NCBI GenBank assembly: GCA_947588845.1
Contig: CANQAR010000026.1
Coordinates: forward strand, 1 to 40,575
DNA: 40,575 bases
From: an uncultured Lachnospiraceae bacterium
GTDB lineage: Bacteria; Bacillota; Clostridia; Lachnospirales; Lachnospiraceae
Direction: 5' to 3'
Below the pieces are notes generated by a model, which did no database searches, was not told the DNA's origin, and worked only from the letters and a program-made list of their open reading frames with translations. A program made the translations under genes and the position numbers. Positions 1,449-30,773 of the stretch are shown here, piece by piece; positions within the stretch are counted from its first letter, which is position 1, and every line of letters starts with the position of its first letter.

Positions 1449-1503
1449 GTCTGCTGATGCAGACCTGAATCCCACGCGCAAAACTTGCAAGCGAGTTTTG
1501 AAA
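1449..1503. repeat. Dispersed structured repeat, family C copy 1
   Basis: Two adjacent hairpins are visible: GTCTGC-tgat-GCAGAC at 1449-1464 and CAAAACTTGC-aa-GCGAGTTTTG at 1479-1500. The block aligns without gaps to 13275-13329. About 52 bases align with roughly 17 differences, all but one of them transitions. The second stem shows one compensatory change (C-G to T-A) and three wobble-preserving changes between the copies, although two of its pairs are lost in copy 2. Confidence 0.65.
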
Positions 1504-1510
1504 TCTTTCC

Positions 1511-1564
1511 TTGCACTGGTCTTCTGAAAAATATATAATATTTCCTGAGATTATAGGAAATATT
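1511..1564 (+). promoter_or_regulatory. Promoter and operator-like palindrome of the HTH-AAA-nuclease gene
   Basis: TTGCAC at 1511-1516 and TATAAT at 1534-1539 are separated by 17 bases, a good sigma-A promoter. A perfect inverted repeat, AATATTTCCT and AGGAAATATT at 1537-1546 and 1555-1564, overlaps the -10 box and the start region. The gene it controls encodes an N-terminal helix-turn-helix, so autoregulation is plausible. A strong AAGGAGG lies at about 1574 before the ATG at 1588. Confidence 0.7.
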
Positions 1565-1587
1565 TCTGATAAAAAGGAGGAAATATC

Positions 1588-3459
1588 ATGCCTGACGGAA
1601 ATATGATCGGAAGCAGCAAGGCTGCTGAAATTTTGCGGATGAGTCCCCGCAGAGTCGGACAGCTGTGCAGCGAGGGCAGGCTGGAGGGCGCAAGAAAGAT
1701 CGGACGGAACTGGTTTGTGCCGGAGGAAAGTGTTCTGGCGCTGATAAAAAAGAAGGATTCCGGCAGGAAGCAAAAATCTGCAGAGAAAGAGACACGCCTT
1801 CCCTGTGCGGTTGGAAGTACTTCGTACAGGGAGATCCGGGAAGAAAGCTATTATGTGGATAAGACGCTTCTTATTCGTGATTTGATTGATGATAAAAATG
1901 CAGTCACTTTGTTTACCAGGCCGAGGAGATTTGGAAAAACGCTGGCGCTGAGTATGATCAGGACTTTTTTTGAGAAAACACAGGAAGATACCTCTGTTTA
2001 TTTTAAGGATATGAATATCTGGCGGTGCGGAGAAAAGTATACGCGGCAGCAGGGAAAATATCCGGTTGTCTGGCTGACTTTCAAAGATATAAAGTTCAAT
2101 AACTGGAAAGACTCCATGGAGGCTTTTTGTCTGGTCTTAAAAGACGAATACAAGCGGCATGCGGAACTCTCCGACAACCCGGAACTGGATGAGGATGACA
2201 GAGATTATTACCGCAGAATGATCCGAAAGGAGTTGAGTCCGGTCGAATATACGCGCTCCCTGCTTATTCTTACCAGGATGCTGAAAAAAGTGCATGACAC
2301 AAATGTGGTAATTCTGATTGATGAGTATGACACGCCCATCCAGCAGGGATATTCCTGCGGATTTTATGAGGATGTCATTGCTTTTATGAGGAATTTTCTT
2401 TCTGGCGGACTGAAAGACAATGAAAATCTGGCTTTTAGCGTACTCACTGGTATCCTGCGGATATCAAAAGAAAATTTGTTCAGCGGACTTAACAACCTTA
2501 CGGTAAACACGGTAATCGATCAGAAATACAGTGAGTACTTTGGATTTACGCGCAAAGAGGTAAAAGCTCTGGCTGACTATTATGGAAAAGCAGAAAAAAT
2601 CGGGGAAATCGAAGACTGGTATGACGGATATCTGTTTGGAAATACGGAAATTTTTAATCCCTGGTCCGTGATGAATTATTTCAGCAGTGATCTGCAGCCC
2701 AAAGCATTCTGGGCCAATACCAGCGACAATGCGGTTATCCGGGAAATTCTGAAAAATATTACGCCGGAAATTTCAAAAGAACTGACATTGTTGCTTCAGG
2801 GAGAAACGATTCATACATTTTTGGATATGGAAGTTCTGTATCCCAGACTTGCGGATGAACCAGAGCATATCCTGAGTTTTCTTCTTGTGGCCGGGTATTT
2901 AAAACTTGTGGAGCCTGTCCTGGAGACGGAGACGGGCACTTATGGAGTGCTTGCTCTGCCGAATAAAGAAGTCCGCCGCATTTACCGGACAGAAATTACA
3001 GGTTGGCTGCGCAGTGTAGCTTCCGGAAATATCGTATCAGGTATAGAGAACGCGCTGATGAAAAATGACGGGGAGAGTCTTCAGAGAAACCTGCGGTTGT
3101 TCATGCTTCGGTCAGTCAGCAATTTTGACGGTGCGGCGGAAGGGGTTTATCACGGTATGGTGCTGGGGCTGACTGCAGTCATGGCGGGGAGATATCGGAT
3201 CCGTTCCAATCGGGAAGTGGGAGAGGGCCGGTTTGATCTGCAGATGGAGCCGGAAGTTCCACAGTTTCCGGGGATAGTTATGGAATTTAAAGCGGTCAGA
3301 AAAGGAGAACGTGTTTCGCTGGAGGAGAAAGCTCTGGAGGCGCTGAAGCAGATTGAAGACAGGAAATATGATACGGATCTGAAGGAAAAAGGCTGTTATA
3401 CCATATACAGGTACGGAATTGCTTTCTGCGGCAAGGATGTGGCGGTAGAAACAGAATAG
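1588..3459 (+). CDS. HTH-AAA ATPase-like protein with C-terminal PD-(D/E)XK nuclease domain
   Basis: The 623-residue protein combines three parts. Residues 6-55 resemble an excisionase/MerR-type DNA-binding helix-turn-helix (SSKAAEILRMSPRRVGQ, then a wing ending RNWFVPEESV). Residues 75-400 match the AAA-ATPase-like family PF09820, with YYVDKTLLI, the phosphate-binding RPRRFGKTL at 111-119 and the Walker B stretch VVILIDEYDTP at 240-250. The C-terminal domain matches the PD-(D/E)XK family PF08011, with RFDL followed by IVMEFKAV. The biological role of this abundant gut-anaerobe family is not established. The copies at 10917 and 33670 lack the helix-turn-helix, so this one is a fusion variant. 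It has its own promoter with an overlapping palindrome, and a strong ribosome binding site sets the start. Confidence 0.85.
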   Translation: MPDGNMIGSSKAAEILRMSPRRVGQLCSEGRLEGARKIGRNWFVPEESVLALIKKKDSGRKQKSAEKETRLPCAVGSTSYREIREESYYVDKTLLIRDLIDDKNAVTLFTRPRRFGKTLALSMIRTFFEKTQEDTSVYFKDMNIWRCGEKYTRQQGKYPVVWLTFKDIKFNNWKDSMEAFCLVLKDEYKRHAELSDNPELDEDDRDYYRRMIRKELSPVEYTRSLLILTRMLKKVHDTNVVILIDEYDTPIQQGYSCGFYEDVIAFMRNFLSGGLKDNENLAFSVLTGILRISKENLFSGLNNLTVNTVIDQKYSEYFGFTRKEVKALADYYGKAEKIGEIEDWYDGYLFGNTEIFNPWSVMNYFSSDLQPKAFWANTSDNAVIREILKNITPEISKELTLLLQGETIHTFLDMEVLYPRLADEPEHILSFLLVAGYLKLVEPVLETETGTYGVLALPNKEVRRIYRTEITGWLRSVASGNIVSGIENALMKNDGESLQRNLRLFMLRSVSNFDGAAEGVYHGMVLGLTAVMAGRYRIRSNREVGEGRFDLQMEPEVPQFPGIVMEFKAVRKGERVSLEEKALEALKQIEDRKYDTDLKEKGCYTIYRYGIAFCGKDVAVETE

Positions 3460-29511: not shown

Positions 29512-29844
29512 TCATTTCAGCAGTTCTTTGACCGCGAGCGCCGCCGAGCAGCCGGGGCAGTCGCAGTACAGCGCGCCGTTTGCCTTGATCTCCTTCGCGT
29601 GGGCGAGAAGATCCGCCGCCATTTTCTCCCCGAAAACTTTTGCGCCTGCTTCAGAGTCCGCAAACGCGATCAGCCCGTCGATTGGGGTGACGTCCTCATC
29701 AATCTCCGCCAGCAGAGCGGCCGTCGCGTTTGCCTCCCTGTCCGTGCCTTCGGCGTCGAGCCAGGCCTGTCCTGCCGCTTTCAGGTCTGCGCAGGAGGAT
29801 GAAGCCTCGATCATTTCTTTTACTTTCTGTCTGATTTCTTCCAT
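29512..29844 (-). CDS. Small helical protein with CDCPGC motif, unknown function
   Basis: The 110-residue product is mostly alpha-helical with an acidic middle (LLAEIDEDVTPIDGLIAFA) and ends CDCPGCSAALAVKELLK. The CxCPxC motif near residue 95 may bind a metal or form a redox pair. Short proteins with this layout occur in many Lachnospiraceae, and some databases give them a heat-shock (Hsp90) label that is not supported by any Hsp90 domain. ACGGAGG lies 10 bases before the ATG at 29844. It is convergent with YibE/F, with only 20 bases between the ends. Confidence 0.65.
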   Translation of the reverse strand: MEEIRQKVKEMIEASSSCADLKAAGQAWLDAEGTDREANATAALLAEIDEDVTPIDGLIAFADSEAGAKVFGEKMAADLLAHAKEIKANGALYCDCPGCSAALAVKELLK

Positions 29845-29931
29845 GAGAAACACCTCCGTTTTTCTTTGATTATAACGCTCCGAAACGGATTTGAAAATGG
29901 GTTTTATGTAAATCTTCAGGTTCTGCAGATT

Positions 29932-30531
29932 TTAGTCTCGGAAATATTTCAGCATTTGTATCAGTATGGGACTTTCTGACATCTCGTTGATATCTTTGCT
30001 GCGCTGACCGAATTGAACAAATTGTGAATTAGAGTAAAAATCATATAACTTTGGATTGCTGGCACATTCTATGTACACTGTTTTGCCGCCGATAATAAGC
30101 TGTGCTTCCTGCACTTTATGGCAGGCTATTGTCAATAGCTCTTTTCCGGGGATTGAGGCGGACAAAGCTGGATTGAAGTTTCTGCCTAATTGTGCGATTA
30201 AAGGCATAGAAATCAAATAACGGTCAAGTTCCCTGTCAAATTGGGAAAATTTTAATATACGCTTTTGAAGTGTTTTGCTTAATATGTTTCCGATAACCGC
30301 AACAAATTTGTTCGCCAAGGTAAAATATCCGACTAATTCTGGCTTTTTATTGTCAGAAAAAATAAGATAGGTCATGGCGATTCTCTGCTTGGAAAATTCA
30401 ATCGCTTTTGTATGTATGAAATTTTCAACATCTGTATTTTGCGGACACGTAAAACCAGAGAGGGTGGCTTTTAGTTTATCCTCCCCGTATGCATCGAGCA
30501 TTTCTAAAAGATTCAGCTCTATATAATCCAT
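29932..30531 (-). CDS. GNAT-fold acetyltransferase-like protein, probable toxin of a type II toxin-antitoxin pair
   Basis: The 199-residue protein shows the GNAT core. The FTLANK strand is central, IPGKELLTIACHKV takes the place of the acetyl-CoA loop and its helix, and TVYIECASNPKLYDFYSN matches the conserved ExxxNxxxxxFY end of the fold. It starts inside the last codon of the upstream 59-residue gene (TAATG), so the two are translationally coupled. GNAT toxins of this kind (TacT, AtaT) acetylate aminoacyl-tRNA; that activity is inferred from fold and context only. The local DNA is clearly more AT-rich than its neighbours, which suggests transfer. An alternative is an ordinary acetyltransferase. 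Confidence 0.7.
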   Translation of the reverse strand: MDYIELNLLEMLDAYGEDKLKATLSGFTCPQNTDVENFIHTKAIEFSKQRIAMTYLIFSDNKKPELVGYFTLANKFVAVIGNILSKTLQKRILKFSQFDRELDRYLISMPLIAQLGRNFNPALSASIPGKELLTIACHKVQEAQLIIGGKTVYIECASNPKLYDFYSNSQFVQFGQRSKDINEMSESPILIQMLKYFRD

Positions 30532-30710
30532 TACAATTCATCTCCGAAAAATGCTTTGATATCTTGTGTACCTTTTAGTTCTTTCACTTTGCAGCCGGAG
30601 GAAACAGGTTTTGAGGAAATAGAGGCAGCTTTTTCCAATGCTTTTACAAAAGCGGCGGCAGAATTTTTGTCATGGATTACAATATTTTTTTTAATACTCT
30701 GAGTTGCCAT
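30531..30710 (-). CDS. Small partner of the GNAT-like protein, probable antitoxin
   Basis: This 59-residue frame is shorter than common ORF cut-offs. It begins MATQSIKKNIVIHDKNSAAA, continues with an amphipathic helix (FVKALEKAAS) and ends DIKAFFGDEL. Its stop overlaps the toxin start by one base. AAGGGAG lies about 9 bases before the ATG, and a good promoter is just upstream. No ribbon-helix-helix motif of the TacA type was recognised, so it may be a different antitoxin class that binds through its C-terminal helix. Assignment rests on size, order, overlap and the promoter palindrome. Confidence 0.7.
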   Translation of the reverse strand: MATQSIKKNIVIHDKNSAAAFVKALEKAASISSKPVSSGCKVKELKGTQDIKAFFGDEL

Positions 30711-30744
30711 ATGCGTTCACTCCCTTCAAATTATTTTCGATATT

Positions 30745-30773
30745 AGTATAGTTCATTTTTTGAAAAATGACAA
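30745..30773 (-). promoter_or_regulatory. Promoter and operator palindrome of the toxin-antitoxin-like operon
   Basis: On the minus strand TTGTCA (30768-30773) and TATACT (30745-30750) are separated by exactly 17 bases. A perfect palindrome, TCATTTTT-tg-AAAAATGA at 30753-30770, fills the spacer and touches the -35 box. A protein bound there would block polymerase, as in autoregulated toxin-antitoxin operons. Confidence 0.7.

Follow-up and report, generated by a model that had tools for sequence, protein, structure and literature searches.

An uncultured Lachnospiraceae bacterium (assembly GCA_947588845.1) carries, on contig CANQAR010000026.1, two overlapping genes that encode a protein of 59 residues and, downstream of it, a GNAT-fold protein of 199 residues. 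They lie within positions 1 to 40,575 of this contig, and this whole stretch of 40,575 nucleotides is referred to below as the window. We propose, with a probability of roughly 72%, that the pair is a type II-like toxin-antitoxin (TA) system that is mobile and whose small antitoxin belongs to an undescribed class; toxicity and its neutralisation are predicted. What the sequences show is the gene layout, the near-obligate pairing of the two genes, their joint divergence, the toxin-like fold with its tyrosine, and the presence of the pair on phages, satellites and plasmids.

Conservation of the gene pair

The first-pass annotation of the window had described two open reading frames (ORFs) with a one-base TAATG overlap and had read them as a TA-like pair. 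Both ORFs are present on the minus strand (Table 1), and the overlap is likely to couple the translation of the GNAT gene to that of the small gene. The TA-like reading is supported by the order of the genes, with the gene in the antitoxin position first and overlapping or close, and by a near-constant pairing. The latter was evaluated at 164 loci (L001-L164), which include the window's genome and come from genome contigs, the family sample described below, viral contigs and annotated records of phages and plasmids. Many of these loci are near-identical phage copies, and they correspond to 95 distinct small proteins and 102 distinct intact pairs. The small gene was searched for as an ORF of 40-90 codons, directly before the GNAT gene, with a MAT-x-[ST] start, and such an ORF was found in 157 of the 164 loci; the hosts of the family comprise Lachnospiraceae, Clostridioides difficile, streptococcal and staphylococcal phages, satellite phages and Acinetobacter plasmids. 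The two genes overlap by one base in 68 of the 157 paired loci and by four bases in 28, redundant phage copies being counted. Among the other loci, the GNAT is broken and the small gene present at L013 and L027, where the script had anchored on a later piece; L019 and L142 stand at contig ends, the tail of the small gene being visible in the former; and L049 holds a GNAT devoid of its start, beside which the small gene was not found. At L065, on the Helicobacter heilmannii plasmid pASB1_2, the ORF before the GNAT is another one, of 92 codons (2227-2505, plus strand), that does not begin with MAT-x-[ST] and is perhaps a second type of partner.

The family sample is consistent with this picture. 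A GNAT relative occurs in 51 of 397 genomes sampled from the window's family. This count includes the window's genome, and the places in these 51 genomes amount to 60 loci in all. A full small gene accompanies every intact GNAT gene (42 of 42), intact meaning a single frame that spans model positions <=15 to >=180. The first-pass annotation would have been refuted by a GNAT that lacks the small gene in most genomes, and these figures do not refute it. In the class-wide search, GNAT matches were obtained in 22 of 391 genomes, at 26 loci; a small gene, full or partial, is present at 21 of these, and one (L188) stands at a contig end. The four weak matches L183-L186 (below 35 bits), presumably other GNATs, have no small gene and serve as a control; L174 and L190 denote a single place. 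In the reverse direction, a profile of the small protein hit 21 places, distributed over 16 of 60 relatives, and a GNAT lies downstream in 18 of the 20 places fetched, in pieces or partial at L195, L205, L206 and L209; it is missing at L192 and L210. L192 (G823, 1501-1659, plus strand) is a full small gene with no GNAT within the 1.5 kb read downstream, and looks like an orphan antitoxin.

At the evolutionary level, the two proteins diverge together, as judged from their distances over the 102 pairs (r = 0.85, with a permutation maximum of 0.11). Relative to six relatives of about 80% identity (L003, L004, L005, L007, L010 and L011), the GNAT gene has a ratio of nonsynonymous to synonymous substitution (dN/dS) of 0.05-0.16 and the small gene one of 0.16-0.46, values indicating that purifying selection acts on both. 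The locus was also said to be AT-rich, which agrees with its GC content of 0.374, compared with 0.481 for the window; 4% of 780-nt segments are lower.

The GNAT protein resembles known toxins

The window's GNAT matches phrog_1758, labelled 'acetyltransferase' (E 2e-40), and its AlphaFold2 (AF2) model shows a GNAT fold with a predicted local distance difference test (pLDDT) score of 92. The closest solved structures, by both profile and structure searches, are the TA toxins AtaT, TacT, KacT and GmvT. The residue Y166 is invariant in the 102 pairs and, in the alignment, falls on the FYxxxGF site of both GmvT and AtaT. The nearest structures and the retained tyrosine thus sustain the earlier description of the larger protein as a GNAT toxin-like one. 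We rejected a housekeeping acetyltransferase in view of the single copy of the gene in its own genome, its scattered presence (51/397 and 22/391 genomes) and the near-constant pairing. Pfam Acetyltransf_10 is found in 10 of 51 GNAT relatives, and their NCBIfam and PADLOC matches are few and weak.

A probably undescribed family of small partners

The partner proteins measure mostly 53-72 residues. No Pfam, NCBIfam or PADLOC match was obtained for the small protein of the window at E up to 5, the NCBIfam and PADLOC scans covering the window's own copy. It matches phrog_3291 (E 1.9e-8), and 50 small proteins of the family match phrog_3291 (40), phrog_24170 (26) and phrog_6339 (19), three families for which PHROGs gives 'unknown function' and nothing more. 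Up to E 1, Pfam returned 31 families for 50 small-protein relatives, each with one or two members among the 25 listed; the best E-value among these listed matches is 0.0017, for HTH_AraC in one member, and they were taken as chance. The profile of the small protein matched 18 solved structures. At the top stand designed alpha-Rep repeat proteins, whose E 2e-6 is a sum across the repeats and of which no single stretch is significant; the remaining helical matches are unconvincing.

The most constant aspect of these proteins is their N-terminus. M1, A2 and T3 are invariant in the 102 distinct pairs, and position 5 is Ser in 98 and Thr in 4. This invariance is not an artefact of the search filter, because few GNAT loci are exceptions, and the same start was found in none of 943 ORFs of at least 100 codons (window, L001-L025 and L070-L164). 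Since the codons of A2 and T3 vary synonymously across the family, the constraint bears on the protein. A second conserved part lies near the C-terminus (I/L/V51, K/R52 and F/M/L55). As it is short and lies directly before the GNAT gene, overlapping it or nearby, the small ORF could be argued to serve solely the translation of that gene, as a leader or coupling peptide. This is highly improbable in view of the invariant M1, A2 and T3 with their synonymously variable codons, of a small-gene dN/dS below 0.5, of conserved C-terminal positions far from the start and of nine full small genes that stand beside broken GNATs.

The first-pass annotation had also noted that the partner does not resemble ribbon-helix-helix antitoxins. 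The blank Pfam result for the window protein agrees with it, as does the predicted fold, which would be helix-strand-helix-strand-helix and not strand-helix-helix. A read-through fusion of the small gene and the GNAT in one relative, with a linker of 10 residues, was modelled with a predicted template modelling (pTM) score of 0.87, which suggests a complex between the two proteins. No structure match was found for the small part, the search with the fusion being filled by GNAT chains and BFVD giving generic GNATs.

Proposed mechanism

We propose that the 59-residue protein would be translated first, from an mRNA common with the GNAT, and would bind the enzyme directly and hold it inactive. Once freed, the 199-residue GNAT, of the AtaT/TacT/KacT/GmvT kind, would most likely acetylate the amino group of aminoacyl-tRNAs, which would stop translation; the step from a toxin-like to a toxic protein is one that we infer. 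The small protein is likely to contact the enzyme through its invariant MAT-x-[ST] N-terminus and a short C-terminal helix, and the operon would be spread by mobile elements. A more specific form of this scheme, which we regard as rather doubtful, is that the small protein is a substrate mimic, its unextended N-terminus (Met-Ala-Thr-x-Ser/Thr, with the alpha-amino group) being placed in the GNAT active site at the position of the tRNA's aminoacyl group. The small protein might itself be acetylated and so act as a consumable sensor, and the family would be the missing Firmicutes and phage branch of GNAT toxins.

Several observations weigh against the TA proposal. The acetyl-CoA loop of GNAT enzymes bears a glycine-rich Q/RxxGxG/A motif, and here this loop is degenerate, with G129 as its sole invariant residue; Q114, G116 and N118 are conserved before it. 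At locus L012 (5001-5597, plus strand), a GNAT of intact length, which shares 62% identity with that of the window, has no adjoining small gene, nor was one found elsewhere in that genome; this empty result, for one genome, is weak evidence. Among the 18 broken or truncated GNATs of the family sample, nine have a full small gene and one a partial one; for the other eight none was found, three of these being at contig ends. The decay asymmetry in this sample (nine broken GNATs beside a full small gene versus none of the reverse) is not significant as a proof of toxin and antitoxin roles, because gene length alone (600 versus 180 nt) assigns about 0.77 of the breaks to the GNAT gene, and 0.77^9 = 0.095. 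The complex prediction is that of a linked read-through fusion, with no contacts given. Finally, tblastn with the window small protein against phages gave no record at E 0.1, as expected for a fast-evolving query of 59 residues; the phage partners are identified from position, start motif and profiles because of this blank.

Alternatively, the GNAT could be a phage or plasmid cargo enzyme and not a self-toxin; its substrate would be a small molecule or a protein of host or phage, and the small protein would be its obligate subunit or specificity factor. The lone GNAT of L012 and the degenerate loop would fit such an enzyme, and a phage GNAT with another role, Rac of the phiKMV-like phages, is described in the available part of PMC7552054. 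The nearest structures are nevertheless tRNA-acetylating toxins, and it would be odd for a mere subunit to be kept in full beside nine broken GNATs, or at L192 with no GNAT in the 1.5 kb downstream; we consider this explanation unlikely. In its own right, L012 offers a natural test of whether the GNAT enzyme alone is harmless.

Comparison with known systems

The GNAT toxins known from the available text of PMC9177977 are associated with DUF1778 antitoxins and, in one clade (VcaAT), with DUF4065, and the accessible part of PMC9431474 presents those of Klebsiella pneumoniae as paired exclusively with ribbon-helix-helix antitoxins. The window's pair resembles TacAT, AtaRT, KacAT and GmvAT in its GNAT fold, nearest by profile and structure, its catalytic-type tyrosine and its upstream partner, overlapping or close. 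It differs from them in this partner, theirs being a ribbon-helix-helix DUF1778 protein, whereas the window's belongs to a family of mostly 53-72 residues with no Pfam match and a different predicted fold. With VcaA-VcaT it shares a GNAT toxin-type protein with a swapped, non-DUF1778 partner (PMC9177977, available text), but the antitoxin of that system is a DUF4065 protein and the window's partner has no Pfam match. We have kept the pair out of the TacAT/AtaRT and VcaAT classes because neither DUF1778 nor DUF4065 was detected in the window small protein (Pfam, E up to 5) or among the matches listed for 50 relatives (25 of 31 families). The pair would work like a GNAT TA system, outside both classes.

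The accessible portion of PMC9177977 further describes TA-like bicistronic GNAT loci outside the 'true TA clade', with divergent short ORFs that lack DNA-binding domains and whose antitoxin status is left open. The window's pair is similar in having a short ORF before the GNAT without a recognisable DNA-binding domain; it is unlike those loci, compared by description only, in that their ORFs are called divergent and no family is named for them. The same portion describes GNAT toxin homologues as almost absent from Firmicutes, against which counts the bioinformatic prediction of six GNAT-type TA loci in Staphylococcus aureus (PMC6266405, available part). Among the PHROGs entries, the window's GNAT belongs to phrog_1758, and members of the partner family match phrog_3291, phrog_24170 or phrog_6339. 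No paper describing the MAT-x-[ST] partner was found in the open-access literature, judged by titles and the openings of abstracts.

We thus describe a GNAT toxin-like family with a very small and different partner, carried by 51 of the 397 genomes sampled in the window's family and by phages, satellites and plasmids. Should the GNAT be toxic, a new antitoxin class would be added to DUF1778 and DUF4065, and it would be a candidate for the 'yet unidentified antitoxins' mentioned in the available text of PMC9177977; the short invariant N-terminus would then have a role that simple mutation could probe.

Mobile carriers

With the window GNAT as query, tblastn retrieved 20 phage records and 53 plasmid records, and 15 phage, satellite and plasmid records were examined individually. 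A MAT-x-[ST] ORF stands beside the GNAT in 14 of the 15, being unannotated in phiCD418 and SMO_1P, and the GNAT is annotated as 'hypothetical protein' in 12. The carriers include, for C. difficile, the phage phiCD418 and one plasmid with phage genes; the streptococcal satellite phages Javan250, Javan54 and Javan652, with the pair at the element end in the last two; the Solobacterium phage SMO_1P; and bajarodcaudo virus 4, where the pair lies between integrase and peptidase. The pair directly follows the lysin in the streptococcal phages Javan118 and Javan166 and the staphylococcal phage P954, and an amidase in the Latilactobacillus phage TMW 1.1393 P1. Three Acinetobacter plasmids carry the pair, and one Helicobacter plasmid the GNAT. 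The region behind the lysin is a usual place of cargo expressed in the lysogen.

These positions raise the possibility that the prophage, satellite or plasmid uses the TA pair for phage defence, through abortive infection or superinfection exclusion, and not for its own maintenance, a use compatible with our proposal. It would be consistent with the cargo position behind the lysin or amidase (Javan118, Javan166, P954 and TMW 1.1393 P1), with the satellite ends (Javan54 and Javan652) and with weak matches of 2 of 51 GNAT relatives to the PADLOC model PDC-M42B (best E 1.9e-4). Conversely, PADLOC is blank for both window proteins (E up to 5), and what else it gives for the 51 GNATs is weak, each of these hits being to another family and involving one to three of the GNATs. 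In addition, no obvious phage or plasmid gene was seen in the five ORFs scanned around the window copy. We hold a defensive use to be possible, short of probable.

Promoter and palindrome

A promoter, TTGTCA-17-TATACT, had been reported upstream of the pair; it was found 35-63 nt before the small gene start codon. The match by itself means little because shuffles of the region yield about three promoter-like matches, the number actually found. Both hexamers are conserved in the upstream alignment, which comprises the window and 12 close relatives (13 sequences, 10 distinct). The perfect palindrome that was said to fill the whole spacer is indeed in the promoter, but it leaves two spacer bases uncovered and extends over the three final bases of the -35 hexamer. 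No second copy exists in the window and none of 100 whole-window shuffles contains one, but when the AT-rich upstream region itself was shuffled 100 times, arms of its length arose in 5 cases. The autoregulation that had been read into it is unsupported, because the 12 aligned relatives all keep the promoter and none has the perfect palindrome, an A/T-rich core being retained there. The palindrome as operator is likewise unsupported, as the best upstream palindrome varies between loci. A much longer one, with perfect arms of 18 nt, ends 52 nt before the small gene start in satellite phage Javan54 (L058).

Table 1. Features of the gene pair and its upstream region (window positions).
Feature	Position	Strand	Basis or conservation
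GNAT-fold gene, putative toxin, 199 aa, catalytic-type tyrosine Y166	29932..30531	-	phrog_1758, AF2 model, nearest solved structures
One-base overlap TAATG, stop/start	30531..30531	-	sequence
Small upstream gene, putative antitoxin, MAT-x-[ST] family, 59 aa	30531..30710	-	ORF and translation, phrog_3291, dN/dS
Shine-Dalgarno-like AGGGAG before small gene	30720..30725	-	AAGGGAG or AAAGGAG in 13 aligned sequences
-10 hexamer TATACT	30745..30750	-	kept in 13/13 aligned upstream sequences
Perfect palindrome TCATTTTT-nn-AAAAATGA, 8-nt arms, 2-nt loop, 18 nt	30753..30770		window only among 13 aligned
-35 hexamer TTGTCA	30768..30773	-	TTG[CT][TC]A in 13/13 aligned upstream sequences

Surroundings in the window

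Of the five neighbouring ORFs compared with Pfam, three correspond to a YibE/F gene, an AraC regulator and a predicted AAA-ATPase, and two have no match. At E 1e-60, the flanking AraC gene has matches in 3 of 47 genus genomes, counting that of the window. The entire region, together with the pair, recurs in G838 at 97.5% identity. In G781, homology ends where the AraC gene does (window 30899, L215 3321); different genes follow, which leaves no clean empty site. Near the pair, a gene of 113 codons (29515-29853, minus strand) with a CDCPGC motif near its end and no Pfam match has relatives in 11 of the 47 genus genomes, that of the window included.
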